Assembly: GCA_017506865.1 (NCBI GenBank)
Contig: JAFCMP010000055.1
Location: 248,001 to 312,000 of the forward strand
Direction of reading: 5' to 3'
DNA from: Tribonema minus
Lineage: Eukaryota; Sar; Xanthophyceae; Tribonematales; Tribonemataceae
Length of the DNA stretch: 64,000 nucleotides
Below, one piece after another: positions 17,901 to 43,159 of this stretch (its first letter is position 1; every line of letters starts with the position of its first letter). The position numbers were made by a program, and so were the translations under genes. The notes under the pieces are model-generated. The model worked only from the letters and a program-made list of their open reading frames with translations. It did no database searches and was not told the origin of the DNA.

Positions 17901-20900
17901 TCCCACAACGCCAGCAGCATCTCGAGGTCCTGCCGCAGCAGCGCCCACTCTGCGCCACCGCCACCACCGCCGCCGCCCTCCGCGCCCCGCCCCTTCAGCA
18001 GCGCCACCACGCCCGACGCCGCCGGCCCCGCAGCGCCGCCGCCTGTCGCCAGCAGCAGCGCCGCGGCGAACGCGGGCTGCGCGCGCGCCGCCGCCGCCAG
18101 CAGCTCCGCCGCTGCAGCGCGCGACGCCTGCGGCTCGGCCGCGCTGCCGGTGCGCTCCAGCAGCGCGCGCGCCAGCGCCGCCAGGTTCGCCTGCCCGAGC
18201 AGCTCCGCCAGCGAAACCGCGTCGGCGGCGTTGGCGGAGGCGCAGGCGCCGATGCAGCGTGCCAGCGCGGTCAGCGCGCGCGCCGCGAGCGTGGGCAGCG
18301 CCGCCGAGAATGGCCCACCGCCGCCCCCGCTGTCGCACACATACGCGGCGATGAGAACGGCGCGCGACGGCACCGCCGCCAGCGCGCGCCTGGCGGCGGC
18401 GGCGGGCAGCGGCGCCACCACGCCCTCGCCGGAGGGCACGGCGGCGCCGCCGCTGCCGCTGCCGCCGGCGGCGGCGGCAGTGCCCGCGCTCAGCCATGCG
18501 GGGGGCTCGCAGAGGGCGGAGGCGATACGCGCGACGAAGCGCGGTCCGGAGGGGTGGCCGATGGCCTGCAGGCGCAGGCTGACCTGTCGTCACAGGGGCC
18601 ACACGCACATGATGTCAGTAGGGGGAGAGGCAGTGCTCAGCAATGGGCGTCAGGTCTGACGGAGGGAACGTGCAGCGGCGTCCCTGTAAAGCCGCGCTGT
18701 GCGGGCGCAGTGAGCGGGCAGCCATTGAGGAAGTGCCGACCGCAAATGGAGACTGCATTGCGATGGACGGGCGGATTCACGCTGCAGAAGACGGGGTGCG
18801 AGGCGGCACTCCAGACGTGCGCAGAGCCGCTGCGGCTGCGAAGATGCGCAGACTTGCGCTGGCCACCGACGCGCGGTGCAGCGCGCACCTGCATGCTTTT
18901 TCTGCGAATGCCTCATTTCCTGTATGGGTATCTGCCCATCCACGCGCCCTTCGCATGTGCACGTCCCCTTGTGTTGATTCATGCTCAGCGCCGAAACGGC
19001 AGCAACACACCACACAATGACCCAACTCTCCAGCCACTGTCGCAGCGCATGCGGCCTGTCTCTACTTCAACTTTTTCACACGGCAGTGCATAATTTTTTC
19101 ACTCCCCAAGCACAGCGGCGCGATAGCGGCGCGACGCACACCTTAATGGCCCCCTCCAGCACCGCCAGCGCCTCGTGCGCAAGTGCCTCCAGCACAGTTG
19201 CCTCTCCAGCATCGTCCGCGCCAGCGCTCAGTGTAATGTCCACAGGCAGCACGCCGCCGCCGCCGCCGCCGCCCGTTGCCCCTGCTGCCGCTGCTCTGCC
19301 AGGACGGTCCAGTGAGGCGAGGCGGAAACGGTCCTCGCCGCTGCGCGCAAATATGTCCGCGAGGCTGCCGTTGAGCTCGCCGCCGCCGCCGCTGTCGCCA
19401 GCGTCGTCGCCCGCCAGTTGCTGCGCGTCAGGGGCAACGAGGATTGGGGGTAGGTGAAGGGGGGTGGGGGAAGTGTCTGGGTCTCTCGACGCAGCGCGCG
19501 CACTGCCTGACTGCTCCAACGCTGATCGCAGCTTGAGGCAGCGCTGTGCAGGCATAGTAAAGCTGCAAGAGTCGGCATGGACCGTCCGCACACGCCAGCA
19601 CTCAGCTCGTGCGCCATGCGCGCCGGCGGCAGATATTCAGGTCTCTCGACACAGGGCGCGCGACGCCTGACTGCTCTGGCGCGGATCGCAGCTTAGGCCA
19701 GGGCTGTGCAGAAATAGTGCTGCTGCAAAGGTCGGCGTGGTCCGCACAAATCAGCGCTCACCTCGCGCGCCGCGCGCGCCGGCGGCAGCGTCGCCGCCTC
19801 CACGAGCGCGTCGCGCAGCGCCGCGTCCTGCGCGAGCCGCTCGCACAGCGCCGCCGCCGCGCCCTCGCCCTCCTCCGCGCCTGCCGCCGCCGCCGCCGCC
19901 GCCGCTGGCTCCGCCTCCGCCGGCAGCGGCGGCGCGTCCAGCGCCGCGCGCATCGCCTGCGCGCACAGCAGCGCGAGCGACCAGCGCTCGCGGCGCGCGC
20001 CCGCGTAGCGCCACGCGCGCGACGCCGGCAGCAGCGCGCACGCAAAGCTCAGCAGCGAGGCGGCGAGCGCTGCCTCCGCTGCCGGCGCGCCGCCGGAGGC
20101 GGGGTGCGGGTGCGTGCCGAGCGCCGCGGCAAGGACGGAGAGTTCCTGGGAGGGGGCGGCGGTAAGCAGGGGGGGGGAAGGGGGGAGGTGGGGGGGGGCT
20201 CATGAGAGGGCAATGACAAAGCGCGTCCGACGACTGCATGAGCTGCAGACCTGCAGGCTCAAAGTGTGAGCTGGCTCAGACATGCCTGCTGAATGCATGG
20301 AAGGCGGATCTGTACGGCTGAGTCGATCGGCGCAGCCCACCGCTGCGGCGATGGAAAGCAGCATCCGTGACGGACGCGGCCAAGGGAACCACTGCACGAA
20401 CGGTCCGCCGGTAGAGTAATGGCAGTGTACGTGGTGCCATGCGCCGCATCACAGTCTCTGCATCTCCAGGCGCTGAGCAGCGCTGCGCGTCCCCCATTAG
20501 CGCCCAGGGCAATGCGCCATCGCTAGCGTTGAGAACACCGCCGTCCAGCGCGCACCAAACCCCGACATGGCAGAAAACGTGCTGCCAGCAAACGCATGGC
20601 AGCCGCGGGACCACGCACTAGTTTGCACGCCATCGTGGCAGCATCAATCACCAGCTCTAGAGATCTTGCAAGTACCACGTGCCGCACCTGGCGCGTCGCC
20701 TCGGCGGCGGGCCCCGCGGCAGCGGGCGCAAGGGGCTGCGTGCAGCGCTCCGTCAGCTCCATCCGCGAGATGCGTCCATCGGAGATGCCGCGGAAGAGGA
20801 CATCTAGCGTGTTGGCGCTCGCTCTGATGCCAGCTGCCTCCAGCGCCGCCGCGAGAGCGCGCCTGTCCAGGCGCCGCTCGCCGCCGCCGCCGCGCTGCTG

Positions 20901-23900
20901 CTGCTGCTGCTGGCGCTGCGGCGCCGTCCCAGCCAGCGGCGGCGCGGCGAAGAGCGCGTTGAGGTCCAGTTGCGGCCTGCTTGCAGGGGGAAGAGGGCGG
21001 CGTAACAGCAGCAGTACTGGGGTCAGCGCCGGGTGGGGGAATTGTGAAGCGCCGCTGCCGTACTCACGGCGGTGGAAGTGATGGCTGTGCTGCTGCAGCG
21101 TCAACTTGAGGCAAGCGCTCTTGCCCTGCGCCGCAGTATGTTCTGCCTGAAATCTTGATGAGCGCGAACGAGGGCGTGATGTCAAGCCGGTGCGAGCAGC
21201 GCTGCAAGCCCATGTGTGTGCTGCCTACATCCAGCGCTTCGTGTGGCAAGAATTGAGAGCACGACAGCGACCAGGCCCTGTGCGCACCACGAAAACCTAA
21301 GATTCCACGACCACAACCAATATGCCACGCATGGCGCCGTAAAGCGAACCGCTCTGCAAGAAAGCGAGCTGTTGAGGCAAGCGCGCCCGCGCTGCGGCAC
21401 TCATTGCGAGCAGGCAGCAGCGCACGCGTGCGCGCGCGCACTCACGTGGGCGTGTTGACGTAGCGGATGATCTGCGCAGCGGCGCTCAGCATGGCGGCCG
21501 CGACGGGGTAGCGCCGCTCCTGGCACTCGACGCGCTCCACCACCTGCGGCGGGACGCGCGCACATCAACGCTCAGCAAACGGTGGTGCTGCGCATACGCC
21601 AGCACCCTCGGCAGCAGCACACTCAGCATGCGAGGGCACTCGACGCGCTACACCACCTGCAGCGGGGCGCGCGCAGACAACGCTCAGCGACACGACGGCG
21701 CTGCGCACACGGCAGCACTCTCCGCATGCCAGAGCGCTCACAAATGCTCCAGGATGGGCTATTCGTGAGCTCGGTGCAGTCACGTGCAGATTGGCACTGC
21801 TCGCGTGCGCAGCGAGCACCCGCTGGGCTCTGGCTTGACGATGGCATGCGCTGCGTGGCAGTGCTGGGCAAGTGTGCAAAGTTCAACACACCCGTCAACG
21901 CACGCTGCATTGCACAACCGTTCCGCGTCATGGCAAGAACAAAAATGGACACGCTGCCTGGCACCGTGGCGCCGCACAGCAGCGCTCGTTGCTTTTTTTT
22001 GTACATGCATTCGTGACAGCGCCGGCATGTCACGCCCCTCCTTTGCGGGGCGACACGCAGCACAGAGGCGAGGCACGCGCGAGCTGCACGGCAGCACGAC
22101 AGAGCGCGCTGCGCGCCGCGAACCCCTCTGCGTCGCCGCAACAGCGCTGAGCATTGCTATCGACACGCACGCACCTGCGCGACGTGCGTCAGCAGACCGA
22201 ACCCGTCGCCCAGCCCCCCGCTGCCGTACCCCCCCGCCAGCCCCGCGTCCCTGACCAGCGCGCCCACGACCTCCCCCCCCCACGCCCCCCCCGCCGCCGC
22301 GAGGGACCCCAGGAGGCGGACGGCGGCGGCTGCGCAGGCGTGCGCTGCGGCATGCGCGCTGCCGCTGCTGCTGCCGCCGCCGCCGCAGAGCCGCTGGCAG
22401 AGCGACGTGACGAGGGCCTGCAGCAGGCCGGCCTGCACGGCGCAGGAAGAGAGCGCGCAGTGAGTGTAGTACTTCGAAGTATGTATGTTGAGGGATCGGC
22501 CTTTGAGGTGGATGAGTGCATCTGGCACGTCCGAAAGAGGATCGCTTGCGAACTTGACATGCAGCTAGCTGGCTTGGCAACGAGACTGAACCCAGCGCTG
22601 AGCTGCAGCTTGGTTTCGTAACAGTGGGTAGGCTCCCGTCTTGCAGGCAGTTCACACAAAGCCTGACAGAACGCTGCGAGATTCTCCGTGCATGACTCCG
22701 AGACACACAACGGCAACGGCAATAGAACTGCCGACACCAGCAAGGCACACCAGCCAAGCACCGCTTCTCTGTGGATGCGTAAGCAGCAGCACGTCCTCAA
22801 CAGCAGCAATGTTCTATGGCAACAGCGCCGCCGCGCGCGTGCGCACGCACCAGCTGCTGCGCGAGCGTCGCGCTGCCGTCCTTGATGGGCAGCGGCGAGC
22901 CCTCCGCGGCACGGCGCAGCGCGCGCCGCTGCTCGGCGGTGGCGACGCCCAGCGCCCGCAGGTCTTCATCCGTCGCCTGCAAAGCGGCAGGCGCAGCGGC
23001 GCAATGCGCGGCAGGGACAGCGATGTCAGCAGCCACGAGATGGCGCACACAATGCACACAAGAAGTGAGGATCGCGCCTGCTGGCAGCCGTCCCGCAGAC
23101 ATGCAGCGTGTGCTGCGCATCAAGGTTTTGTCCGTGGCCTGAGGCGCGGCCGGCACGGCGGCGCAGGACAGCAATGTCAGCAACTACTGCATGGTATATA
23201 CATATAAACAAGAGAGGTGAGGACCGTGCCTGCTGGGTGCCGTGCTGTGAACATGCATGCACTGGGCCAACTACTGCCGCGTCCCGCCCCCTTCCTGTTG
23301 TCTTTAAGAAGCAGGTCACTGATGCCACTACATGGGGCAACACACATGCAGCCCTCTGCAAGGCTTCCCGACCCCAGCACGCCGACTGGGAGTGAAGATA
23401 GTTACTGCCCACCCGGGATCTCTGGAGGGTATTGATCAAGGTATATCTCCTTGCAGGTGTTGCGCAGCGTCACTGCTCAAATATCACAGGCATATCTGCA
23501 ACATCACTGCGCCGCATGCAAAGCGGGTGCCGATGCAGCATTAAACAACGCAAAATCGTGCCACCGAGCCTGATTTGGCAACACGCATAATGCAGCGGGC
23601 CAGCAGAGCTGCCGCGCGTGCACGCAAAGTTTCCAACGCACTTCAACAGTGACGCTCTCGTGCACGCGCGCACCTGCTCTAGGTGCCGCAGCGTCAGCTG
23701 GCGCCGCACAACAATATCCTCCGTCAGCGCCTCGAGCCCCAGCGCCCGCAGCGCCTCCACGACGGCCCACGACAGCAGGTGACGCTCCGCGCGCGCCAGC
23801 GCCGCGGCGCCGCCGCACCGCGCGACCGCGCTCCACACGTCGAGCGCTGCCGCCGCGGTGACCAGCGCCTCCTCGCCCGCGCCGCCCGCCGCCGCCGCCA

Positions 23901-26900
23901 CGAGGCGCAGCGCGCCCGCGCACGCGCTCACCGGCACCGCGGGGAACTCGACGATGGCGGTGGCGCCGGCGACGCCGCCGCCGCTGCCGGGGGACGCGCG
24001 CGCGAGCACCCCGCGCGCGCCCCCGCGCAGGCGCACGCCCAGCAGCGGCAGGTCGACGTCGCGCAGCAGGACGACGCCGCGGCTGCGCTGCGCGAGCCCG
24101 GACGGCCCGTACGCGGAGTTGAAGTCGCTGCCGCCGCCGCCGCCGCCGCTGCTGCCGCTGTCGCCGCCGTCGGCCCAGGCCCACAGCGCCTGCGCGTCCA
24201 GCGGCAGCACCGCGGCGCAGGCCGTGTCCGCGACTAGCGCCTCGCACGTCAGCGCCGCCGTCTTGGCGTCGGCAACGCTCGCGGCGACGAGCGCGAGGAA
24301 CGCGCGCGGCGCCGCGGGGAAGGTCTCCAGCGCCGCCTGCAGGAGGCGGCGCAGTGGCGTCGTGCGCGGGTCCGCCCAGAAGGAGCGGATGACGGCCTCC
24401 TGGCCCCTGCGTGATGCAGCAGCAGCAGCAACGCGAGGCAGCGAAAAATGTCGTGGTGTAACGTGAGCATGCTGCAGCACTGCCTGCAGGCAGACGCGAC
24501 GGAGTCTAGGGTAGGCGATGTCTGTGGTGACACCGGCCCCTACTCCCCTTGGGCAGCAGGCAGCGCAGTCGGGCGGGCGTCACACTTGCTGAGCGGTGCA
24601 CCAGCCGCGGGCTACGCGTGGCGGCGCATGAACGGTCCCACACTTCTACATTGTGGCATCTGCAATACAGAAACAGCTCTGAGGGTCTGCTCTGAGGGTC
24701 TGCTGGGGCCGCCGGCGGTGGCAGGACTTACAGCAGAAATAGCACCAAGCACTGAGGCTGGTCCTGCAGCACAAGCTGCGGCAGGTGGTTTGGGAGTTGC
24801 ATCACCCAAGCATACGTGTCTCGCAAAGACGCCATTCTGGTCCAGCAGCAGGGACGGCATGCCATCCAGTGCGCCGCAGGAAGCCCAGCTGCTGTAGCAG
24901 GAGCGCCTTAAGTGCACGCTCGAGTTGGAGACGCCATCCAACTGGATTCAGTGCATAACATGCAAAGGCTCAGCATATCATCACTGCGCTGGCGTAAATG
25001 CCGGCGCCAACACGGAGTCTGCACGCTACATGTGCCCATGAGGTGCGCTGAATGCAACGCGCAGCAGCGCCCTTGTCCCCGTTGCCGCTGTTAGCGGAGA
25101 CAGCATCGCAGTGCCGTCGGTAAGCGCTGATGCGGACGCGCACGCAGCGCCAGCGTTGCCGCACAGCGCTATTTGTCTCCCGCAGCGCGCACTCCAGCTG
25201 TGGCGGAGCCAGCTCTGATGGCTGCGCCAGCGCAGCCGTGGCAGCATCGCCATTACTCTGTGCAGCGCCTGCATCGTGGGGACCTTGCTTCCTTTATCAA
25301 GGAGCGGGTGGACAACAGGCTGCAGGAGCTGGAAATGCAGCAGCCGGCAGGCTACATCATCTTTGCTGTAGTGCCCATCAACGAGACGGTCTACTACCAT
25401 GTGCCGCCGCTCGTTTGTGAGAGATGCGCGGTGAGCACTGCTGACCAGTCTCAGGCGCCGCCGCCTGAGACTATCCCCTACACCAACAAGTGCACCTGCA
25501 TTCATCAGGTGCAGGAGGGTCAGGCAGTGCTATTCATGGTGCTGTGCTGCCGCGAGCATGGCGCGTCGGCTTGCAACGCTGGCCGCGTCTACCTGTCGTA
25601 TCTGGACACGGTGGCACTGGCAAAGCCTGCAGAAGCCCGTACCACAATCTACCAAGAGGTGGTTGCGGCCTACATGGACTGGGTGCGGCGCAGGGGCTTC
25701 CGCTTCGTGCACCTGTGGAGCTGGCCCTCTGCCGAGGGGGACGAGTACATACTCGTGCGCAGTGCGGACGCCCTGCCCTACGCCCAGTTCATGTACGCTG
25801 CAATCACCTCTTGGTAGATTGTGGTGCGGGCACGCGCCGGCTTCGCCAGTGCCAACGTGTCCAGATACGACAGGTAGGCACGGCCAGCATTGCAAGGTGG
25901 TGCGTGGCCATCGTACCCGCGGCAGTACAGCACCATGAACAGCACTGCCTGACCCTCCTGCACCTGGTAAATGCGTATACCTCAAGTATGCATTCAATGG
26001 TGTAAGGAAATGGTCTCAGGCAGCAGCGCCTGAGGCTGGGCAGCAGTGCTGGCCGCGCAACTCTCGCGGACAATTCGCGGCACATGGTAGCTGACCACCT
26101 TGTTGACGGGCACTACAGCAAAGATGCTATATATCCTGCTGGTTGCTTGATGGCCATTCCTCAATGGCCACTCCCTGAAGCCTGTCATTCACTCGCTCCT
26201 TCATGAAGGCAGAAAGGTCCCCACACTGCAGGTGCTGCTGCATATTGAAGTAGTGCAATGCAGATGCCGCTGCCGCTGTACTGGCACTGCCATCACAGCT
26301 GGCTCTGCCACAAGCTCAAGAGCGTGGGGTGGAGGAGATGGGGCTGTGCGGCAATGCTAGCGTAGCGTTGCATACTTGGGTGCAGCAGCACGTGCAGACT
26401 GCAGACTGCAGAGCCCTCTCCGCTGGCTGTGGCAACGGGAATTAGGGCACTGCTGCGCATTGCGTGCAGCGCACTTCATGGGCACATTTCGCATGCAGAC
26501 TCCGTGTCGGGCGCCGGCATTAACACAAGCGCAGTGATGATACGCCCAGCCTACGCACGTGATGCACTGGATCCAGTTGGATGGCGTCTTCAGCTCGAGT
26601 GTGCACTTCACAAAAGCGCTTCTGCGACGACAGCTTGGCTTCCCGCGGCGCGCTTGAAGGCGTGCCTTCCCTGTTGGCAGCCGGTCCAGAATGATTCTTT
26701 CGCGAGATACGCACGTTTGAGTGTTGCAACTCTCAAAACGCCTGCCGCAGTGCTCAGTACTATTTCTGCTTCTTTACCCTAATCCCAACCCTAATCCCTA
26801 ACCCTAACCCCTAACATCTGCCACCACTGGCGACCCCCAGCAGACCCTCAGTGTCGGCTGCGCCCACTTCATCAGGTGCCTAACCTTCTACTGTCAGCAG

Positions 26901-29900
26901 CTTCACAGTAATACTATTTGGTTTCTGTAGCTAGCGGAGCACTGGCTGGGGTGTCTGTCAAACGACCGATAAAAACATTGTTTCCCACCAAATGGCATGG
27001 CCGCATCCGCTGCATGCAATCACAGGCTGGGCTAGTGACAGGCACTTCTTGCTGCACAGCAAGAACTGCACGAAACTCCACATCAGCGTCCAAGTGCCCA
27101 TGCGCATGCACAGCCGGCGCTGACGGCGCTGACGCCCTTCGGCGTGCAAGAACAGTGCCAGCGTTGCCGCACAGCGCATTTTGCCTCCCGCAGCACGCAC
27201 TCCAGCTGTGGCAGAGCCAGCTCTGATGGCAGCGCCGGCGCAGCCGTGGCAGCATCGCCATTACTCTATGCAGCACCTGCAGCGCGGGGACCTCGCTTCT
27301 GTTATCAAGGAGCGGGTGGACGACAGGCTGCAGGAGCTGGACGTGGAGCAGCCGGCAGGCTACAGCATCTTTGCTGTAATGCTCGTCGACGAGGCGATCA
27401 GCTACGATGTGCCGCCGATCGTTTGTGAGACGTATGCGGCCAGCACTCCTGCCCAGTCTCAGGCGCCGCTGCCTGAGACTATCCCCTACACCAACAAGTG
27501 CATCTGCATCTACCAGGTGCAGGAGGGTCAGGCAGTGCTCTTTATGGTACTGTACTGCCATGAGTACGGCAAAGACGCGCCAGCTTGCAACGCTGGCTGC
27601 GTGTACCTCTCATATCTGGACGCAGTGGCGCTGGCGAAGCCTGCGGAAGCCCGCACCACCATCTACCAAGAGGTGGTTGCGGCCTACACGGACTGGGTGC
27701 GGCGCAGGGGCTTCTGCTTCATGCACCTGTGAAGCTGGCCCCCTGTCGAGGGGGACGAGTACATACTCGTGCGCAGTGCGGAAGCCCTGCCCTACGCCCA
27801 GTCCATGTACGCTGCGATCACCTCTTGGTAAATTGTGATGAGGGCGCGCGCCGGCTTCGCCAGTGCCACCGTGTCCGGATACGACAGGTAGATACGGCCA
27901 GCGGTGCAAGCTGGGGCGTCGCCGCCGTACTCGCGGCAGTACAGCTCCATGAACAGCACTGCCTGACCCTCCCGCACCTGGTAAATGCATAAACTTCAAG
28001 TATGCATTTGTTGGTGTAGAAATGGTCTCGGGCAGCGGCGCCTGAGACTGGTCAGCAGTGCTGGCCGCACGACTCTCGTTTGACGGCACATAGTAGCTGC
28101 TGCCTTGTTGACGGGCACTACAGCAAAGATGCTATATCTCCTGCTGGTTGCTTGATGGCCATTCCTCGATGGCCATTCCCTGAAGCCTGTCATTCGCCCG
28201 CTCCTTCATGAAGGCAGCAAGGTCCCCACACTGCAGGCGCTGCCTACTGAAGTAGTGTAATGCGAATGTCGCCGCCGCTGTACTGGCACTACCATCACAC
28301 TGTCAGCTGACTCTGTCTCAAGCTCAAGTGCGTGCTTGGGGGAAAAGATGGGGCTGTGTGACAATGCTAGCGTAGAGTTGCATACTTGGGCGCAGCAGCA
28401 CCTGCAGACTGCACGCTGCAGAGCCCTCTCTGCTGGCGGCTGCAACAGGAACCACGGCGCTGCTGCGTGTTGCGTGCAGCGCACTTCATGGTCACATTTT
28501 GCGTGCAAACTCCGTGTTGGCGCCGGCATTGACACCAGCGCAGTGATGATACGCCCAGCCTACGCACGTGATGCACTGGATCCAGTTGGATGGCGTCTCC
28601 AACTCAAGCGTGCACTTCACAAGGCGCTTCTGCCATGGCAGCTTAGCTTCGCGCGGCGCGCTTATAGGCGTGCCGCCCCTGTTGGCAGCCGGTCCAGAAT
28701 AATTGTTTGCCAGATATGCACGCTTGGTGTCGCCTGCGGCAGTGCTCAGTACTATTTCTGCTTCTTAACCCTGAATTCAACCCTAACCCCTAACCCTAAC
28801 CTTACATCTGCCACCACTGGCGACCCCAGCAGACCCTCAGTGCCGACTGCACTCACCTCATCAGGTGCCTAAACTTCTACTGTCAGCAGCTTCACAGTAT
28901 TTTGTTTCTGTAGCTAGCGGAGCACCGGCTGTGGTGTCTCTCAAACAACTGATCAATACCTTGTTGCCCACCGAATAACATGGCTGCATCTGCTGCATTA
29001 AATCACAGGCTGGGCCAGTGGCAAGCACTTCTTGCTGCAGCGCAAGCAACTCCACAGCGGCGTTCAAAGCGCCCATGCGCGTGCATCGCTGGCGCTGACA
29101 ACGCTGCGCCCTCGGGCTTGCAAGCACGCACTAATACATTCTGCATTGCTTGCCCGCAGCAGTGCTCTGCGCCCGAATGCGAGGCGTAGCCGGCACCTGA
29201 ACTGACGACCATACTCCGGACGTCGCCGCTACGGACCGGCCACTGCGCGGCTCTCACCTGCGCACGCGCGCCACCGCCAGTGCGAGCGCCTCCACGCTCG
29301 CCGCGTTTGCCAGGCCCAGCCCGATCGCGTCCAACGGCTCGGGCGACATCGCGATCATGGCGCCGCCGCCGCTGCCGCCGCCGCCGCCGCTGCTGAGCGC
29401 GCTCGTGCCCACGTACAGCGCCGCGACGACGGCCGACAGGACGTCCGAGAGCACGGCTGCGCAGATGGCGGCGGCGGCGGAGGGGCGCGCGGCGTGCGCG
29501 TCGCCGCGCGCGCCCAGCAGCGCCGCCGCGTGCGCGCGCGCCGCGTCCACCGCGCCGCCCTCGATCTGCGCGATCGACGGCGTACGGGCGCAGGAGCTGA
29601 TGCGGAGCTGTACTTGCATATTGCTGCCGCCGGCGATAGCCGCTGGTGACGCTACGGCCAAACGCACAAGTCGTTGTGCAGGGTGGCGACTGTAGGCGGC
29701 GCTGCGTGTGATCTTCGGATGCGACTGCAGAATGACAGCCCAAATTTCGACGTTTGCAATGATTGCGGAAGCCTGTGTATGCTATTGATGCGCTATGTGC
29801 AAGACAACGAAGCTGCTTGCAAGCCCACCTACATAGCGTGCTTCCATGCTTGCCAGTCAATGTGATTCATTGATGCGCACGCTGGCATGCACTGCGTCAT

Positions 29901-30277
29901 CATCAGCACACAGCAGGCCAGTGGTGGAGCGCTGTGCATGTGTGTACTGCAAGTGGTGACGTGCCTACCTTGCTGGTGTCTGGCAGCAGCGCGCTCGCCA
30001 TGTTGTCCAGCACTGTCAGTGCCTGTCAACATCACGGCAGCAGTTCAGCAAGCAGCCAGTCAAGCTAAAAGCGGGCAGGGAAAACGGATATGGTGGCAAG
30101 TACGCATACCAGGAGGTCTGGCACCACAAGAGCGCATCTGGATCGAGCGACCAAACACCTAAGCATTGATCCATCAGACCACAAAAGAGCGCGTCTGGAT
30201 TGAGCGACCAAACACCTCATCATTGATCAATCAGCAAACGTTCAAAATGCTGCTGTCCACATCTTCAACGTGCTGAT

Positions 30278-30327
<50 letters not shown>

Positions 30328-33300
30328 GGCGGCAGCAAGTACGCAAGCGCTTTATCAGTCTAAAAACTGTCACAAGACCCCCCCCCCACACACACACACA
30401 CACCCCTCTTCCCCCAAAAACGATACAGCGGCTCACCTCAGCGTTCACTGCGGCAATGACCATGTCCCTGTCGCCGTCGCCGAGCCAGCCATCAAGCGTC
30501 GATGCGAAGCGCACACGTGACAGGCGCAACGCGCATCCCCACACCAGCCTGCAACAACGCGCGCGGGCGGCAACGGCGGAGCAGCTGCAGGTCAAAACAG
30601 GCGCGGCAAGTCAACAGCTGCAGCAGTTGCAGCGAGCAGTGCTTCTTGGGAGTGGAAGGGTGCCCAGTGAGAATACGCCGCTGATTGCGCCTTTGACGGC
30701 GCCAGCGAGATCACCGCACGTCGGCGACGCTCCAACCGTCACTCGGAACAGGGGGGGAGGGGGGGGGGGGACAGGTGCAACGCGCGCGCGCAGACCGATG
30801 TCAGCCTGTCAGCTGGCGCTAAGGGCGCAACTTTCACTCAAAGTGTCAATGCTCAGTCATTGGCCAAGCGCCATGAACGTGCACCGCAACGTCGGCGCCT
30901 TCCATGGCGGCCGGCTATGTCATGCCAACGCCAGCGCACTGCGAATGCGTCTGGCTGACCAGCAGCAGCGCAGCGCTGCTCTTCTCTGTGACGAGCGCGC
31001 TTCTGGCCGCCGCCGCCGCCGCAGCGCGGCACGCGCCACTGCGGCAGCATCAGCAGCTAGCGCCGCGCGCTGATACTGCTGAGCGCTGCCACTCACCCCA
31101 GCGGCGCGCACAGCTCCGCGCGCGCCGCGACGAGCGCGGCGACGCCCTCGTGCACCTCCTGCAGCTCCGCCGCCGCGCTGCCGCCGCTGCCGCCGCCGCC
31201 GCTGCCGCCGCCGCCGCTGCCGCCGTCGCCGAACAGCCACTCCCAGCGGCTCGCGCCGTCGGCCCTCTGCAGGTCTGACTGCTGCAGCGCCTCCACGGCG
31301 GCGAAGACGAAGCGGTGGGCGAGGCGCTGCACGGCGCGCGCGCCGTCCGCGCGCTCCGCTGCGGGCGCCGCCGCCGGCGGCGCGAGCTGATTGAGCGCGC
31401 GGCCGTCCGTCGTGGCGGCGCCGACCAGCGCGAGGAGGCGCAGCAGGAAGCGCCTGCGAGGAGCGGGGCATGAGGGAGCGCCAGACAGAGTTATGTCTTG
31501 TTAAGGTTCTGAAACACACGGTGAGAGTACGGGGCGTGGTGAGGTGAGGAGGAGCCGCAGGGCGGAGGGGAGCAATGGGGGCTGGGGGCAACGATGGTGC
31601 GCCGCCTGGTCCACAACAAGGGGGTAATTAGCGGGCGGAAATGTGCTCAGCTCCTGTCACCGCCAAGAAGGGGCTGATGAGACCAAGCAGCTGGTGTTGC
31701 TGCTGGAGCTAGATGCAGGCCCGGAGAGTGAGGCGTCATGTGAATATGAACCTTGAAGTATATGTTATACTCGCACTTCAATGTAGGATGCCACTTCACG
31801 TGATCAAAGCAGCACATGACAAGACTACGCACATGTGTAGTTTTCATTTGGACTTTGTCAAGCATTTCAGGCCCAAAACTGCCACAGAGCCGGACTGTTA
31901 ACTACATACATTCAAAGAGGCAGACACCATCGCCACGCCACATGCAGCTACCTGGCAGTACTGGCACACATGCCTAACTGCAGCACGACCAAACGCACCA
32001 TCAGAGCAGCAACCCCGCCGCGCCTCGACATCGCCAGGCACCCCCCGCTTCAGCGCCCAACACGCACCTGCTCTGAGCGCCCCCCTCATCGCAGTACAGC
32101 GCGACCGCCAGGCACTCCAGCAACGCCTCCAGCTCTGCGAGGCGCTGCCACCGGCACGCGTCCGCGTGCTCCGCCACGAAGCGCCGCGCGCCGAGGTCGC
32201 CGCGCAGCGCCGGCAGGTGACGCTCCAGCGCCGCCGCCGCCGCCGCGCGCGTCGGCAGCGGCGCCGCCAGCAGCGCGCCCGCCTCCTTCACCATGTTCTC
32301 CGCGAGCCCCTGGCGCTGCTGCAGGAACGCGCTCGCGTCCGCGGCGTACGGGGACGCCGCCGCGCCCGCGGCGATGGCGTGCAGCAGCGCCTCCGTCGTG
32401 CGCAGCAGCGCGAGGCGCTCCGCAAAGAAGCCCGCGCGCGCCGCGCGCAGCGCCGCCGCGCCGCCGAGGAACGCCTCGGCCGACCACGCGCCGGACGACG
32501 ATGCCGCCGCCGCGGCGCGCTCCGCGCGCGCCGTCGCCGCCAGCAGCTGCTGCGCGCACTGCTGCGCGTCCAGCCCCAGCGCGTCGCTCAGCGCGAGGCA
32601 CGCGGGGACGAACGCCGCGGCGGCGGGCAGCGCGGCGGGCGGCAGACCGTCGCGCGGTGGCGCAGCGCCGCCGCCCGCGCGCAGCGCCGCCGCCGCCGCC
32701 GCGCTGGCCGGGCGGTAGTGGGCGAGCAGCGGCGCGTCGATGCGCGCAGCGAGCGCGCCGTCGGCAGCTAGCAGCTGCCGCAGCTCCGCCGGAGCGAGCG
32801 CGCGCCGCATCAGCGCCGCAAGCGCCTCCGTGTTGAGCGCGCGCGACCAGCGGTCCGCGGCGGCGGGGAACGCGGCCTGCCGCCACACGTCCGCCGCGAC
32901 CGCCGCCACCGCCGCTGCCACGGGCGCTGCGGCGGCGGCGCCGGGCGCTGCCATGGCTGCAGTGGCGGGGGCGCCGAGCGTGAGCGCGGGAAGCGGCGCG
33001 GGGGGGGGCGCGGCGGCGGCAGCGCTGGCCGCTGCCGCGGCGGGTGCAGTGCCAAAGGAGAAGGCGGCGGCGGCCGCAGGCGCAGGCGCTGCTGCGAGAG
33101 GAGGCGCGGCAGCGGCAGCGGCTGGGGCAGCCGCTGGGGCCGGGCCAGCTGCCGATGCGGCCTGAGCTGCTGGCGCTCCGAATGAAAATGCGCCTGGAGC
33201 AGGTGCAGCTGCCGCCGCAGCAGGCGCCGCCGCAGCAGGCGGCGCCGCAGACGGCGCTGGCGTGGCAGCGGCAGCTGCGGGCGGTGCAAAGCTGAACGGA

Positions 33301-36300
33301 GCCGATGCTGCTGCTGGCGGAGCTGCTGCCGGAGCAGCGGCGGCAGGAACACCGAATGAAAACGCTGCAGGCACGGGCGCTGCCGCGGCGGGAACGGCAG
33401 CGGGTGCGCCGCCAAACGAGAACGCCCCCGGACCAGCCGGAGCCGGCGCTGCCGCAGCAGGTGCTGCAAAGCCAAACCCGCCTGCAGCGGCTGGCGCGGG
33501 CGCAGCAGCAGCAGCAGGCGGCGCTGGTGCAGGTGCGCCGAACCCAAATCCAGCAGCCGGCGCCGGAGCTGGTGCCGCCGCGGCAGGTGCGGCAAAGCCA
33601 AACGCGCCTGCAGCGGGCGGCGCGGGCGCAGCGGCAGCAGCAGGTGGCGCCGGCGCAGGCGCGCCGAACGCGAATCCAGGACCCGGCGCTGCAGCAGCAG
33701 GTGCGGCAAAGCCAAACGCGCCTGCAGCGGCCGGCGCGGGCGCAGCAGCAGGCGGCGCTGGCGCAGGCGCGCCGAACGCAAATCCGGCAGCCGGCGCAGG
33801 AGCTGGCGCTGCCGCGGCAGGTGCGGCAAAGCCAAACGCGCCGGCAGCGGCCGGCGCGGGCGCAGCAGCAGCTGCAGGCACGCCAAACGGAAATGCAGCG
33901 GCCGGTGCCGGAGCTGGCGCAGCAGGCGCTGGTGCAGTACCGAAGATCGAGGCCCCGGGAGCTGGCGCGGGAGCTCCGAACAGACCGGCAGCGGGTGCTG
34001 CGGCGGGAGCCGCCGCAGCGGGCGCAGCGCCAAACCTGAAGCAGCGGCAGGCGCAGGTGGTGGTGATGCTCAGGATTGCTGCACACCATGAGTTGTGTGG
34101 CCTGGCAAACTGCCTGCTGAAAGCATTGTGTTGGAAAAATTAATGTGCAATTTGTTGTGAAATATGACAAGTGATGGTGCCGCTCAAGATCAATGCTAAA
34201 ATGCATATTGTCGACATGTTCTGGCAAACTGTCGGTCTCAGGATGCGGAGTTGGCACTTGTGATTTCAAGGCCGCGCGGCAGAGCGCAAGAACAGGAGGC
34301 AGCAACAGCGCCATACCAGCCATACTGGGTTCATCAGCAGCTGCATCTGCAGGTGCCATCAGCAACAGCAGCAGAGGTCAAACCACCAGGATCGTTGGTA
34401 CACTGCAGCAGGCGGCCAGCCCAGACATTGCGGCAATCAGCTCCCAAAGTTGAAGTTGAGCATCGGTGCATAAAAAACTTAAAAGTTTACCAAAAAGTTG
34501 AAGTGTGAACATCAGCAGCGCGAATAACTCTGAACCGGACTGCACTAGCGCCTGCATCTGAGCAGCGTCAACGTCAGCGCAGGCAGCAGCTGCAGACGAC
34601 GAGGCGCGCAGCGGGCAACTTCAATACGGTGATCGCGACGAAGTGCGGCTGCTGCTGTATGGCGATGCATGACAAGCACATTGCCAACTATGCGTAGCTC
34701 AGAGCGGTCACAGCCCACAACAAATAGTTGAAGCTGCACACGTGAGGGGCAGAGCAAGGGGACTGGTCCCACCGCCTGATCAGACAGATCGCGCAGCAGC
34801 AGCGCATCGCTGCCCCAGGGCATCCCCCAGACACCTGACGGTGTCCAGCTGAGCGCGCAGATTGAGCACGCTCTGTCGAACGCGTGCGACCCCGCGAGGC
34901 CTACTCGCAGTAAGCAAGCAACAGAGCGACGCGCTCCACACAAGCTCGCGCTGGGCGCGCAGCGCAGCATACCTGAAACCGCCAGCGCCTGGCGCAGCTG
35001 CCGCGGGCGCAGCGGCAGGGGCGCCCCCGAACCCAAAGCCCGCGGCAGCAGGGGCCGCTGGCGCCGGCGCTGCGCCAAAGCCGAAGCCGGACGGCTGTGG
35101 CGCGGCCGCCGGCTGAGGGGCGCCTCCGAATGAGAAACCGCCTGCAGGGGTCGGCGCGGACAAGGGGCGTCGGTTAGTGTACAAGGCGCGTGTGCGGGAT
35201 ATGATGGGTGCGGCAATTGCTCCGCGGAGCAGTGCGCAGAGGCAAGGTGATGGTACAGGACCAAATACGTCACATGGTAGAGTCGCAGCGACCGTGGAGC
35301 TGCAGCAGCGTCGCAACTTCTAGCTGATGACACCCAGGCGCTGCATGAATGGAGGTGGCGGAGGGGGGTCTCAGCGGCGGCGGCAGCTGCGCGCGACGGC
35401 TGCTGCTGCTGCCGCCGCAGATGATGATGACGCAGCGGCGACAGCGGCAGCAGAGGCACTGGCAGCACTGGCGACAATGGCAATAGATCCAGCAGCAAAA
35501 GCGGCGGTGCTGCTGAGGCAGCGGCGTCAGCGAGGACGGCGAATCAGAGGCAGAGTCCGCAGCGACAGCGCGAGCGGGGACGCGGAGGCAGAGTCCGGCA
35601 GCGGCGGTGGCGAGAGCGACGGCTGCGCATACGGCGGCAATGAGGACAGCGACAGCGTCGAACCTGAGAGCCAGGCCCATGATGATGAGGCAGTGAAACA
35701 TGATACTTCGAAGTATGTACTTTAAGAGGTTGGAGGGGGTCAAGTGGCGATCGCCGACTCCAGCAGCTCAGAAGGGCGAGGTAGAGTTGCCGCCGCCGTT
35801 ACACGCTCCCATGCAGCAGCCAGCACCTTTTGAAGTCATCTAACGGGCGAGACCAGCGATGTGGCTGTGGTGCAGTGTCGCGCGCTGCCCGCCGCTGTTG
35901 CCAGCAGCACGGCCAGGCGCCGCAGCATGCTGTACTGCAGTCCTCTGCTGCCGTGGGCTGGACACTTTCGTGATTCAGTGTACATTTATGAACTTGTACA
36001 AGACTGAGTTGCGCTGGCGCTGAGCGCAAGCCAGACCTCTTTTGCGCGCATTCAGTACATTGGACACTAACTACATCAAATGCTTATGCGACAGTAGTTG
36101 TATGTGCCAACACTGTTGCTTGCCTGCTGCTGGTGCCTGCGCAGGCGCGGCGCCGAACATGGAGGCAGGGGCGGGCGCGCTCGGCGCTGGCGCAGCTGCT
36201 GCTGGAGCCGCTCCAAACCCGCCAAATTCCGACGAGGCAGCAGCTGGCGGCGCTGCGCTCCCAAAGCCAAAGCCGCCTAAGGCAGGCGCGGGCGCCGCCG

Positions 36301-37600
36301 GTGCAGCTCCAAAACCAGCAAATGCGCCTCCGCCCGTCGCCGCTGCCGCGGGCGCAGCGGCGCCGCCAAAGCCAAAGCCTGTAGCAGCAGCAGGCAAGCT
36401 ACAGGTCATGACATACACACTCGGGTAACCATGGAGCGCTGCGGCCTCAAGTTACGCATGCGGCAGGGGATTCTGAAGGGTTCTGAACCCCATGCATTTC
36501 GGCGGCAGCCATCGTTGATCAGCAAAATGGCGGGCGCTGCGAAGGAGTGGACACCGTAGACATAGACAAGGCCTGGGCGTTTTTAGTAGCCTGCCAACGC
36601 AACGCTGCAATGTCGGTATAGAGAGTAGCTGCGGCAGACAACGGAAATCAGTTACCAGACGCTAACGTGCAGTAGCAGGGGACGGCGATGGTTTTGTAGA
36701 GCAGGACGCAGAAGCCCAGGTAGTGCAGGACCACGCCTTCTGCGCGCCTTGGCGGGCTTTTGAGCATGTAGGGACAGTAGTCAAGGTAAGACACCTAGTT
36801 GATTTCTGCAGCTGTTGGTGTAGAAGTATATTGCAACACTGTTGCTTGCCTGCCGCTGCCGCCTGCCTGCATGCTCCTTGCGCCTGCATACCTCAATAGT
36901 TCATCGGAGACGTTCGTGCAATTGTACCAGACTTCAGTGTTGCTGCCTGACACTGTTAGCCACCACTGCCGCTGCTGCTGATGCACACATGCTGACATAC
37001 CATTGTTGTATATGAATAAGCCTTGCCTGCTGGCGCTGCGGCGCCAAACATCGGGGCGGGCGCAGGCGCACTCGCACCAAACATGGACACACCGCCGCCG
37101 CCAGGTGCGGGCGCCGGTGCCGCGCCAAAGCTGCCAAAGCCCGGCGCCGGTGCCGCAGGTGCCGCCGCCGCAGGTGCCGCCGCGCCTCCAAAGGAAAACG
37201 AAGGCGCGGGTGCGCCTGCTGCGGCAGCAGGTGCGCCGCCAAACGAGAAGGCCGAGGCGCCCGGAGCTGGAGCCGACGCCCCGAAGCCACCGAAACCCGC
37301 GGGTGCCGCCGGCGCTGCAGCTGGCGCCCCGAAGCCACCGAACCCCGTGGGCGCCGCCGCTGCCGGCGCCGCTGCCGCTGGAGCCGCCCCGAACCCGCCA
37401 AATCCTGACGCGGCAGCAGCTGGCTGCGCGGCTCCTCCAAAACCGAAACCTCCTGGTGCGGGGGCGGGCGCCGCCGCCGCGCCTCCGAAGCCGCCAAACC
37501 CACCACCGCTAGCTGCGGGTGCCGCTGCCTGACCGAATGTGAAACCGGATGATGCTGGGGCAGCGGGGGCTGCCGCGGGCGCGCCGAAGCCTCCAAACAT
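2971..37600 (-). CDS. NUP188: NUP188-like inner-ring nucleoporin with N-terminal FG-repeat domain
   Basis: Scaffold nucleoporin of the NUP188/NUP205 class, expected in the inner ring of the nuclear pore. I chain 34 exons from ATG 37600 to TAG 2971-2973; phases agree at every junction and the lengths sum to 10707 bases (3568 residues). Exons: 37600-37027, 36378-36124, 35141-34973, 34035-32068, 31453-31097, 30548-30437, 29607-29258, 24406-23674, 22976-22851, 22432-22175, 21543-21446, 20976-20688, 20145-19762, 19420-19142, 18583-17873, 17296-17141, 16621-16312, 15446-15239, 15162-15055, 14413-14125, 13856-13782, 13386-13119, 12718-12151, 11817-11672, 11419-11391, 10897-10775, 9447-9329, 8578-8275, 7694-7430, 6873-6572, 5844-5662, 4502-4287, 3937-3738, 3145-2971. 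Human NUP188 is about 1750 residues and lacks FG repeats; here Gly/Ala inserts and the FG domain enlarge it. NUP205 is the alternative; an SH3-like stretch in exon 8 favours NUP188. The 29-base exon 25 and exon 19 are least certain. Confidence 0.7.
4514..4538 (-). repeat. 25-base poly-C run before an intron 3' splice site (minus strand)
   Basis: On the gene strand this is a C25 homopolymer followed by TACATGTGCAG and then exon 32 of the NUP188-like gene. The right-arm copy has C20 at the same place (41595-41614). It is one of many such runs acting, by position, as polypyrimidine tracts. Confidence 0.85.
4667..4912. repeat. Near-perfect hairpin palindrome at the arm boundary
   Basis: 4667-4778 and 4796-4912 are inverted copies with only a few differences, separated by a 17-base loop. 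The left half continues into the rest of the arm and is shared with the right arm. The right half is unique to this side. The large inverted duplication ends exactly at the loop, so the hairpin marks a breakpoint. It sits in intron 31 of the NUP188-like gene. Confidence 0.9.
4796..4920 (-). pseudogene. EsV-1-7-like cysteine-motif gene fragment
   Basis: The minus strand reads PYGPRGGKRTSCGEHK, then APDWVDLGHPVCDH. The pattern (Y/F)G-x2-GGK-x-T-x-C-x2-H-K-x3-WVDL-x3-C-x-H resembles the EsV-1-7 repeat known from brown algae, cryptophytes, some green algae and algal viruses. Only one module is present, with no start or stop of its own, so I treat it as a fragment. A second, broken copy forms the other half of the hairpin (4667-4778, plus strand) and a third lies in the right arm. 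The family assignment is from memory of the motif. Confidence 0.45.
15740..15840. repeat. Two tandem ~50-bp repeats in an intron
   Basis: The segment GGCATCTGCATAGCATGCGC and its surroundings occur twice about 50 bp apart, within intron 17 of the NUP188-like gene. Confidence 0.8.
16160..16320. repeat. ~90-bp tandem duplication including the exon 17 donor site
   Basis: A block running from TGCAGACCTA to GACTGCACTCACCTA occurs twice with a period of about 90 bp. The second copy carries the real 5' splice site of exon 17 (minus strand). The first is a relic with the same donor sequence inside the intron. Confidence 0.75.
17306..17332 (-). repeat. 27-base poly-C run before exon 16
   Basis: On the gene strand a C27 run is followed by GGGCCGCAG and exon 16 (TTGGTGCAGG). 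It is the longest C homopolymer in the window and lies where a U-rich polypyrimidine tract would normally be. Confidence 0.85.
17368..17425. repeat. Short minisatellite, about 20-bp unit
   Basis: GAGCTGAGTTTGC-like units occur three times in a row just upstream (gene sense) of the C27 run and exon 16 acceptor. Confidence 0.7.
19480..19790. repeat. ~161-bp tandem duplication covering the 3' end of exon 13
   Basis: GTCTCTCGAC occurs at 19480 and 19641, and the following sequence runs in parallel up to a GCGCGCCGGCGGCAG block. The second unit contains the true end of exon 13 and its donor; the first is a relic within intron 13. Confidence 0.75.
21523..21720. repeat. ~113-bp tandem duplication around the exon 11 acceptor
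   Basis: GCACTCGACGCGCT followed by CACCACCTGC occurs at 21523 and again at 21636. The first is the true start of exon 11 on the minus strand. The second is a relic in intron 10. Confidence 0.75.
22960..23290. repeat. ~151-bp tandem duplication around the exon 9 acceptor
   Basis: A unit with GGACAGC, ATGTCAGCA, CACCTCT/CACTTCT-type sequence and CCAGCAGGC repeats with a period near 150 bp. One unit includes the true exon 9 start (ATDEDLRA). The upstream relic reads ATDKTL. Confidence 0.7.
24905..25817 (+). pseudogene. p300/CBP-type histone acetyltransferase fragment A
   Basis: Codes for part of a KAT11 domain, which transfers acetyl groups from acetyl-CoA to histone lysines. A PHD-like half finger (NWIQCITCKGSAYHHCAGVN, 24941-25003) is separated by stops from a 214-residue open frame ending at 25817. 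That frame has DLASFIKERVDNRLQELE, IPYTNKC, RVYLSYLDTVALAKPAEAR, TTIYQEVVAAYMDWV and HLWSWPSAEGDEYIL. These align with human p300 from the PHD end through the SYLD motif, the CoA-contacting Arg and the HIW-type Trp. The part after EGDEYI (including the catalytic EWYKKM region) is missing, cut where the inverted copy begins. It is the best preserved of four copies and is unlikely to be an active enzyme alone. Confidence 0.75.
25785..26720 (-). pseudogene. p300/CBP-type acetyltransferase fragment B
   Basis: Inverted relative to fragment A and joined to it tail to tail near 25790. Pieces in different frames read LELKTPSNWIQCITC (PHD half finger, near 26590-26550), IYSIFAVVPVNKVVSYHVP, then VQEGQAVLFMVLYC and RAYLSYLDTLALAKPARAR, ending at IAAYMNWA. 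The frame changes and stops between these parts mark it as a pseudogene. The sequence after the Tyr/Trp helix is lost at the junction. Confidence 0.7.
26776..26815. repeat. Interstitial CCCTAA telomere-like tract 1
   Basis: About 40 bases of imperfect CCCTAA/CCCCTAA units, between fragments B and C. The matching position in the second 2-kb unit is 28767-28803. Confidence 0.8.
27150..27800 (+). pseudogene. p300/CBP-type acetyltransferase fragment C
   Basis: Tandem copy of fragment A, about 1997 bp further on. An open frame to 27732 reads DLASVIKERVDDRLQELDVE, IPYTNKC, VYLSYLDAVALAKPAEAR and VVAAYTDWVRRRGFCF, and stops right after MHL, before the Trp of the HLW motif; the following bases still encode a GDEYIL-like stretch. 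The PHD half finger present in A is not found upstream. Confidence 0.7.
27795..28720 (-). pseudogene. p300/CBP-type acetyltransferase fragment D
   Basis: Tandem copy of fragment B, about 2.0 kb further on and tail to tail with C. It reads the NWIQC-type PHD stretch near 28570, VVPVNKAA, then REGQAVLFMELYC, GRIYLSYPDTVALAKPAR and IAAYMDWA. The SYLD motif is changed to SYPD and the parts lie in different frames, so it is a pseudogene. Confidence 0.65.
28767..28803. repeat. Interstitial CCCTAA telomere-like tract 2
   Basis: CCCTAACCCCTAACCCTAAC with an AATTC interruption, at the right end of the second 2-kb unit. Confidence 0.8.
30113..30235. repeat. ~60-bp tandem duplication in an intron
   Basis: GAGCGACCAAACACCT and its flanks occur twice in succession between exons 6 and 7 of the NUP188-like gene. 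Confidence 0.85.
30282..30326. repeat. Pure (CAG)15 microsatellite
   Basis: Fifteen uninterrupted CAG units in intron 6. On the transcribed (minus) sense it reads CTG. A C run and a (CA) run follow at about 30380-30402. Confidence 0.95.
32885..37600 (-). other. FG-repeat domain of the NUP188-like protein (exons 1-4)
   Basis: Residues 1 to about 715 are Ala/Pro/Gly-rich with about 45-50 FG dipeptides: many GFGGFG and MFG units in exons 1-3, then alternating GAFGFAAP and GFAFGAPAP units in exon 4. Exon 4 (34035-32068) contains a repeat of about 40 codons in roughly four copies. Charged residues are almost absent, as in cohesive FG domains that bind transport receptors, but the spacers are Ala/Pro rather than the usual Ser/Thr/Asn/Gln. 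Exon 4 passes without a break from FG repeats into alpha-helical scaffold (ADVWRQAAF onward), so the fusion does not rest on a splice prediction. Introns 1 and 2 start with GC (AG|GCAAGG and AG|GCAAGC). Confidence 0.8.
36833..36881. repeat. Relic of the exon 2 donor region
   Basis: CAACACTGTTGCTTGCCTGC occurs here and at the true exon 2 donor (about 36109-36128), about 720 bp apart. This copy lies in intron 1 and preserves the GC donor context. Confidence 0.65.
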
Positions 37601-41319: not shown

Positions 41320-41502
41320 TCAGACATGTGCACCGGCCGTGCGTGCTATGGTGCACAGCCCGCCGTCGGCGGAGACGTGGTTATGCACGGGGTGCCTGAG
41401 GTCGACCCAGTCCGGCGCCTTGTGCTCTCCGCAGCTGGTGCGCTTGCCCCTACGCCATAGGACCGCTCCGCGCGCGACGCATTGCTGCACACGTGCGTCC
41501 AT
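41320..41502 (-). pseudogene. EsV-1-7-like fragment, right-arm copy
   Basis: Minus-strand KRTSCGEHKAPDWVDL followed by RHPVHNH. It matches the hairpin fragment in the left arm (left half), in a single copy here. One metal-ligand-type Cys of the left copy is a His. Gene fragment without its own start; broken. Confidence 0.4.
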
Positions 41503-41624
41503 TCAGCGCCGTAATTTCTCTCCTCACGCTCCCGCCTGAGCGCTGCTGCCGCCCACTGCTCACGCCGCCTCGCGCTCAGCCACACTACCGCCCGCCCCCC
41601 CCCCCCCCCCCCCCATATGTGCAG

Positions 41625-43159
41625 GTCATGCTCTGCCGATATGCCGCTGCAGTGATTGCGGACGTTGACTCCATGCCGCGCGGCGCTGAGAGCTGGCAGC
41701 TGGAGGATCGCCAGGTCAGCCTCACGCTCGCCGTGCGCAGCGGCGGCCACCACCGCGGCGGCCTGCGGGCGCACCAGGAGATGCTGGGCGCGCTGCTCGA
41801 GCACGCGGCGTTCCTGCTGGCGGCCAGCGCGATCGGCCACGTGAGAGTGATGGGCGAGTTGGTCGTGGGAGGTCCAACGGGCATTCTGCATCTTTTAGAA
41901 CATACAGTAGAAAAAGCGATCTGTCGCGTCACTGGCCTGCTGCCTGCACCCGTCGCGTCTGCGCGCGCACTTTGGCGCATGCAGTGTGTTTGTCCAGGAC
42001 AACAAGCATGCCCTGCTCTCGTTTCCCAACCACGCTTGTCAGCCGCACCATCCAGCCAGCTCGAAGGCGTCACGGGGCGCAGTACCTGAGCTCGTCGTTA
42101 CGCATGCGCCTTTGCGATCGTCGCACAAGAGATCACTCGCGGCTTCTCAAACATCCCTGACCCTTCTGTCTTGTCATCTTGTGCCCCCGGCAGGAGCGGA
42201 GCGCGCCGCTGCCGGACCCCGCCGCCATCGCGACAGTGCACAGGGATCTGCACGGAGTGTTTGCGGTGCTGCTCGCGCCGCCGCAGTGGGACGAAGCTGC
42301 CGCCGCCGCCGCCGCTGCCGCCGGCACCGGCGTGTGGCGCTTTGTGGATGCGGCGTTCGTAGACGGATTCGTGCGCACCGAGATACTGGGCCCCACGTGA
42401 GCGCACATCCCTACTCTGAACATGCGTGCGCGTTTCGAAGCGCGCCAGTGCTTGTGGCGGTACAGCGTGCGGCGTGCGCGTGCGGTTGGTTTGCGTTTCG
42501 GTGCGGAGGCAGTAGGGCGCCGGCATGCAGTCGATGGGTGGCGCAATGCGACTGTGTCAGCGCTCTGCCGTAGGAGCGTTGACTGTGACCTTGAGACGAG
42601 TGCGCGCAACTGTGACTGCGTGAGCGCCAAAACTGTTGTGATGCACGCCGTTTGTGTAGGACGCGTGGGATATACAGGGCATGCATGATGAGCGCTGCAT
42701 GTGCAAATGGCGGTTCAGGCCGCACTTGCCGAGGGTGGTGATTTTCATTAAGACAGACGGCGTGCACCAAATCGAGGCATGCACAGCATCACACTGCTCT
42801 GCAGCAACATGTCGGTTGCGTGTGCGTGATCGCCCCCCCCCCCCCCCCCCCCCCCCGTCAGAGTAGCATCCATGCCGCAGCACACCGAAACCCCATCCCT
42901 CACACCACGCCCGGCGCTTCGTCAAGACCGCCCTCCGAGCGCTCACGCTGTCGGTCGCCTGCGCCACCGCCACCGCCGCTGCAGACTCGCCAAGGCGACG
43001 GCGGCGGCTGAGGCGGAGAGGGCGGCGCACGCAACGCGCGGCTCGCACGGCACGCCGCGCAGGGGGCTGCGGCAGCGCTCGTCGCCTTCGCCGCTGCCGC
43101 TGCCGCCGCCCGCGTCGCCGTGCGCGTGCGGCGCACCGCAGCTCCTGTTTGGTCAGTAG
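41625..43159 (+). pseudogene. Duplicated last three exons of the NUP188-like gene
   Basis: 41625-41840, 42194-42396 and 42985-43159 match exons 32-34. All splice sites (gtgaga, gtgagc, and acceptors after C runs or GCTGCAG), the phases and the TAG stop are kept. The first exon differs from the main copy at about 15 of 216 bases and 6 of 72 residues; the second has one extra Ala codon. The remaining 31 exons are absent, so this is a 3' fragment of the gene. The intact frame means either a recent duplication or use as part of another transcript. I see no start upstream. Confidence 0.75.

Follow-up and report, generated by a model that had tools for sequence, protein, structure and literature searches.

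The window, that is the whole 64,000-nt stretch of GC-rich Tribonema minus DNA that was analysed, carries on its minus strand a series of exons encoding a peptide dense in FG dipeptides, which continue in one frame into exons encoding a predicted alpha-helical solenoid. Three-frame translation of the minus strand between 38000 and 28900 puts the ATG at 37600 five codons past an in-frame stop. Exons 1-4, of 574, 255, 169 and 1968 nt, form a single open frame with compatible splice phases, and exons 1-12 together are phase-compatible and stop-free over 1,684 residues. The features of the gene are as follows; below 21446 the model is approximate.

37027..37600, minus strand: exon 1; start ATG and 19 FG; GC donor CAG/gcaagg; ends in phase 1; open frame
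36124..36378, minus strand: exon 2; 8 FG; GC donor CAG/gcaagc; symmetric, phase 1-1
34973..35141, minus strand: exon 3; 5 FG; acceptor ccctgcag/G and donor CAG/gtatgc; phases 1 to 2
32068..34035, minus strand: exon 4; 16 FG, then the N-terminal solenoid; Met694 at 32954; 1968 nt stop-free in frame
32068..32900, minus strand, inside exon 4: start of the putative NUP188-type solenoid (VAADVWRQ...); strongest homology segment
31097..31453, minus strand: exon 5, solenoid; phase fits exon 4; in the multiple alignment
30437..30548, minus strand: exon 6, solenoid; APLGLVWGCALRL aligned with NUP188 APVLLAWALLRHT; hand-picked
29969..30022, minus strand: exon 7, solenoid
29258..29607, minus strand: exon 8, solenoid
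23674..24406, minus strand: exon 9; FW...FP motif and SH3-like (beta) segment; profile match to NUP188 405-459; start hand-picked by phase
22851..22976, minus strand: exon 10, solenoid; start hand-picked
22175..22432, minus strand: exon 11, solenoid
21446..21543, minus strand: exon 12, solenoid
8275..20145, minus strand: further solenoid exons; approximate, from the gene-finder model only; the pieces used match human NUP188 C-terminally (z 6.5-6.7) but not its profile

Manual joining of exons 1-4 relied on splice sites, phase and FG content. A simple gene finder did not link the FG exons to the solenoid and put exons 1-3 in the models of other genes; it also divided exon 4, shifting frame within it, and took histone-acetyltransferase pieces of intron 8 as exons. 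Because the gene finder missed the model, the join of exons 1-4 rests on the open frame, the phases and the FG content. Frame, phase and NUP188 likeness likewise decided the manual choice of exon 6 and of the points where exons 9 and 10 begin. Since NUP188 likeness and FG content guided the choice, homology scores that cover hand-picked exons are partly circular. Intron 8 (29257-24407) is long, and exons 8 and 9 still fit in phase. There are no Ns in the window, whose high GC and Ala-rich coding would suit an alga.

Affinity of the solenoid

Direct searches with the solenoid failed: three pieces of it matched no Pfam family at E up to 5, and phmmer with exons 4-5 against the PDB returned one chance match and no nucleoporin. 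For this reason we compared the solenoid directly with NUP188 of human (5ijo_J), Xenopus (7wkk_B) and Arabidopsis (9sob_B) and with NUP205 of the same three organisms, using 25-residue block shuffles as controls; the references extended to residue 1918 of 2012 for human NUP205, to 1060 for Arabidopsis NUP205 and to 690 for Xenopus NUP188.

An N-terminal NUP188 profile scored 6.5 bits, with two segments in order, whereas the highest of 1,000 block shuffles (234 reported) reached 2.2, and an earlier NUP188 profile had given 6.0 against at most 4.5 in 800 shuffles. The corresponding N-terminal NUP205 profile reported no score for the window. The full-length NUP188 profile, at 2.2 bits, did no better than shuffles, one of which reached the same value, and on the C-terminal half the score was -4.0, under the best shuffle (-0.6). 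Single sequences set against three NUP188 rows with hhalign gave local P values of 0.072 and 0.029, at the expected places.

In pairwise comparison, the strongest signal from NUP188 comes from exon 4. Scored locally and alone, this exon gave z 8.4 with Xenopus NUP188, 5.8 with human NUP188, 5.6 with Arabidopsis NUP205 and 2.8 with Arabidopsis NUP188; outside it, local scores with any reference were at most z 1.9 for exons 5-8, 1.4 for exon 9 and 1.2 for exons 10-12. Over exons 4-12 together, Xenopus NUP188 reached z 6.6, human NUP188 4.0, Arabidopsis NUP188 3.1 and human NUP205 1.5. At full length human NUP188 gave z 4.5 (0 of 150 shuffles as high; path Q8-2176/T2-1728), Arabidopsis NUP188 1.2 and human NUP205 0.5, and for the C-terminal half the values were 6.7 (0/150), 1.2 and -1.0, respectively. 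That half was built from gene-finder pieces (17668-17600 being used with the gene-finder start only) and leaves out 21153-20688, most of 16621-16312, 16017-15943, 15873-15652, 12014-11970 and everything below ~8350; taken separately, its pieces scored weakly against human NUP188 (z 2.7, 3.7, -0.6 and 1.1). When BLOSUM62 is used, the z of human NUP188 drops to 3.0 (equalled or exceeded by 7 of 500 shuffles) and that of Arabidopsis NUP188 to 2.5 (17/500), while Xenopus NUP188 keeps z 8.2 and Arabidopsis NUP205 71-397 has 7.0. A rotated exons 4-12 sequence matched the true order in semi-global score (116 v 108, 145 v 143 and 92 v 83); because rotated scores are as high as true ones, the semi-global test does not show order.

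In three alignments the solenoid shares 18-24% identity with NUP188 and 14-18% with NUP205. The window falls on the opposite side of a branch from the three NUP205 rows (support 100/99, 100/100 and 99/98), its own branch being very long and its composition odd. The multiple alignment also brings out NUP188-like motifs in order: LAHYRP, LALSDALGLDAQQ, FFAERLALLR, RWQRLAELEALLE, APLGLVWGCALRL, SFWADPRTTPLRRLLQAALETFP, the SH3-like stretch and PLPIKDGSATLAQQLAGLLQALV. The SH3-like segment of exon 9 (LGVRLRGGARGVLARA...AIVEF) aligns at the NUP188 position, and the FW..FP motif is likewise placed. According to the structural descriptions cited, an SH3-like domain in the N-terminal half marks Nup188 and was not detected in Nup192/NUP205 (PMC3679522, PMC9061825). 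AF2 models of two single exons were poor (pLDDT 44.6 and 39.8); that of exon 9 (39.8) has short strands.

The alternative that fares best is that the solenoid is of NUP205 type, in which case the gene would be a second design like that of the ciliate protein Nup308 (see Discussion) and not an FG-bearing NUP188. Indeed, the top single pairwise score over exons 4-12 belongs to the N-terminus of Arabidopsis NUP205 (z 9.9, 0 of 300 shuffles); residues 71-397 of that protein gave z 9.4 (0/500), and residues 1-1060 gave z 9.4-10.0 against a fuller model. Exon 4 alone has some likeness to human NUP205 as well (z 1.6 local, 2.6 global), and the AU test does not reject a pairing of the window with NUP205 (p-AU 0.38 and 0.435), which is found, weakly supported (46/12), in the best tree of the third alignment. 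By contrast, the NUP205 profile is silent, human NUP205 does not exceed z 1.5 over exons 4-12 or at full length, Xenopus NUP205 lies at about 0 or below, and the identities, the position outside the NUP205 branch, the SH3-like segment and the FW..FP motif count against this placement. We therefore consider a NUP205-type solenoid unlikely. The sequence comparisons allow us to assign the solenoid with confidence to the NUP188/NUP205 superfamily and, within it, to favour NUP188 as the more likely paralogue. The NUP188-type solenoid of the initial annotation stands to that extent: superfamily membership is upheld, and profile, motifs and identities are more NUP188-like, but NUP188 is no more than favoured, given that Arabidopsis NUP205 scores highest pairwise.

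The junction within exon 4

The initial annotation had placed the passage from FG repeats to scaffold inside one uninterrupted exon (34035-32068), and exon 4 indeed stays stop-free in its frame from the FG repeats into the alpha-helical solenoid and then on through exons 5-12. The observation of a predicted FG domain in one frame with a solenoid is thereby confirmed at the level of the sequence. Just ahead of the solenoid homology lies an internal, in-frame gccATGgc (Met694, 32954), preceded by ctgcag; this methionine may mark where the scaffold gene once began, or serve as an additional start, and a separate FG-less product initiated from it at the junction is possible.

Another reading is that the locus makes two products: an ordinary NUP188 that begins at Met694, its transcript starting at a different promoter or first exon, and an FG protein apart from it, encoded by exons 1-4 or less. 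Besides the gccATGgc and the ctgcag ahead of it, this would agree with the gene finder having left the FG and solenoid parts unlinked, and with the acceptors inside exon 4, the best of which score 4.8, level with the 11 used acceptors (2.5-5.5), on a hand-made splice matrix that is a guess and was not trained on Tribonema minus. On the same matrix, however, the best donor inside exon 4 scores 4.0, weaker than the 12 used donors (4.2-7.4), and the frame from FG to solenoid has no stop. Because exon 4 has neither an in-frame stop nor an equally strong donor, an FG-only product would have to come from a transcript left unspliced or cut short, and we judge two separate products to be improbable, somewhat more so than a NUP205-type solenoid.

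The FG-rich region

Residues 1-693, encoded by exons 1-4 ahead of Met694, hold 48 FG dipeptides, which bears out an initial estimate of 45-50 in about 700 residues before the solenoid. In 5,000 residue shuffles the mean was 10.5 and the maximum 21. The dipeptides are spaced 14 residues apart (median and mean alike), at a density of 6.9 per 100 residues, in a peptide made up of Ala (46.5%), Pro (19.5%), Gly (15.6%) and Phe (9.7%). With 48 FG in 693 residues and only one E and one R, the region has the dense FG motifs and low charge of an FG nucleoporin. The spacers are thus Ala/Pro-rich and almost uncharged, as had been described; they are not atypical in lacking charge, since the FG domains of Nup98 are reported to be charge-depleted too (PMC9918544). 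Nup98, Nup62 and Nup54/58 were considered as the fused protein and rejected on general grounds (a long solenoid follows, and GLFG occurs once).

In each of exons 1-4, FG occurs in the sense frame and is absent from the other five, and all 8 possible codon pairs are used to write it. Among four aligned repeat units of 14 codons each (84 comparisons), 20 codon differences are synonymous and 6 non-synonymous, an excess which suggests that the FG peptide is kept by selection. Given the excess over shuffles, the confinement to one frame, the eight codon pairs and the synonymous excess, the FG peptide is most likely real and maintained by selection, even though exon 4 is partly tandem repeat. It is very improbable that the region is instead a GC-rich minisatellite in a lucky frame, or an assembly join, and no part of the protein: tandem repeats of 120-234 bp do occupy 33436-33904, in part of exon 4, but FG runs across four phase-fitting exons, in the sense frame only and with the 20:6 synonymous excess, and the sequence has no Ns.

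Within intron 1, at 36850-36883, there is a stretch like the end of exon 2 (36124), including its GC donor (caggcaagcaacagtgttg); this likeness is a hint of FG-exon duplication.

Other features of the window

Intron 8 contains, at 24776-29124, direct and inverted duplications of ~2 kb (25145-27150 and 27153-29124 are 86% identical), both strands of which carry HAT_KAT11-like (p300-type) fragments, four in all. A predicted protein drawn mostly from one intron 8 copy matches PF08214 at 28.6 bits (cut-off 22.5). In intron 6, 20 GCA triplets follow one another at 30278-30337 (TGC on the coding strand), and an ARAGORN call of tRNA-Arg at 24226-24317 (minus strand), inside coding exon 9, is probably a false positive.

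A 2.7-kb inverted duplication, 84% identical, links 2104-4802 and 41327-44016; gene fragments in it weakly match an EsV-1-7 cysteine motif (19.3 bits against a cut-off of 25). Inverted fragments of a small cysteine-rich protein lie at 47532-49123 (plus strand) and 55130-56347 (minus strand), with DNA 77-89% identical, and paralogous coding stretches at 29-640 (minus strand) and 45203-45820 (plus strand) are 71% identical in protein; neither pair matches a Pfam family at E 0.01. Rfam gave no match at gathering scores, and a search for relatives in viral contigs confirmed none.

Discussion

FG repeats normally form the filter of the nuclear pore, and the scaffold is usually regarded as a protein class distinct from the barrier, the two being connected through linker nucleoporins. 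The gene described here would cross that division. We think it fairly probable, on the sequence evidence, that a single gene specifies both a NUP188-type inner-ring scaffold and, at its N-terminus, an FG domain of ~690 residues; expression as one protein, location at the pore, function in the barrier and origin are what we infer from it.

In the published accounts summarised with the Tetrahymena work, NUP188 and NUP205 proteins are given no FG repeats (PMC5450191). The initial annotation had taken this to hold for all known members of the two families, which is incorrect: Nup308 of Tetrahymena thermophila (TTHERM_00091620) carries GLFG repeats in residues 1-570 and is helical over 571-2675, was identified in a Nup93 pull-down, and is a NUP205 orthologue in its authors' tree (bootstrap 72%) (PMC5450191). 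Its authors describe the GLFG repeats there as unique to Tetrahymena and hypothesise that they offset the few FG in Nup62 (PMC5450191). To judge from the accounts cited, Nup308, on the sister protein NUP205, is the nearest printed case of an FG-scaffold fusion. Both proteins have an N-terminal FG region followed by a solenoid of the NUP188/NUP205 superfamily; they differ in that Nup308 is a ciliate NUP205 orthologue with repeats of GLFG type, whereas the Tribonema gene is more likely a NUP188 and has Ala/Pro-rich spacers, with GLFG in 1 of 48 FG. Among the papers listed in literature searches we found no FG-bearing NUP188; Chlamydomonas does possess a NUP188 (PMC6006428). With the Nup308 precedent known and no FG-bearing NUP188 found in the sources consulted, the design is not new but the variant would be. 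Plasmodium nucleoporins have also been suggested as unrecognised fusions (PMC9601220).

The two parts of the predicted protein each have a familiar counterpart. The solenoid aligns lengthwise with human NUP188, and its FW..FP motif and SH3-like segment fall at corresponding positions, although human NUP188 begins at the solenoid, without an FG extension. The tail resembles the FG domains of Nup98 in being charge-depleted and dense in FG (~8 per 100 in Nup98 and 6.9 in Tribonema), but GLFG dominates in Nup98 as characterised there (PMC9918544), whereas the Tribonema tail has GFG and FxFG with Ala/Pro spacers and runs into a NUP188/205-type solenoid.

We propose that the solenoid would dock in the inner ring as usual, through NUP93 and the NUP62 complex. 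The charge-free FG tail would leave the scaffold close to the layer that faces the channel, where it would become part of the permeability barrier, bind transport receptors and cohere with other FG chains. Release of the N-terminal tail near the channel would be expected because, in the yeast inner ring as described, the N-terminal part of Nup188 contacts the channel nucleoporin complex (PMC9061825), and cohesion is plausible given 6.9 FG per 100 residues and almost no charge. As to origin, an array of FG-coding exons probably became attached ahead of the former NUP188 start codon and in frame with it; Met694 may be a relic of that codon. The event was probably independent of Nup308.

Our leaning, held with somewhat less assurance than the gene assignment itself, is that this is a NUP188 with an FG domain of its own, acquired independently of Nup308: a scaffold that carries part of the barrier, with FG chains covalently fixed in the inner ring rather than tethered via linker nucleoporins. 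Nup188 is reported to bind FG repeats (PMC3679522), so that the tail could bind its own scaffold, and the question arises of whether tail and solenoid interact in this way. If the reading is correct, the Tribonema gene is another FG-scaffold fusion besides that of the ciliate, probably of separate origin and built on the sister paralogue. Evolution would then seem able to arrive repeatedly at the direct placement of FG chains in the inner ring.
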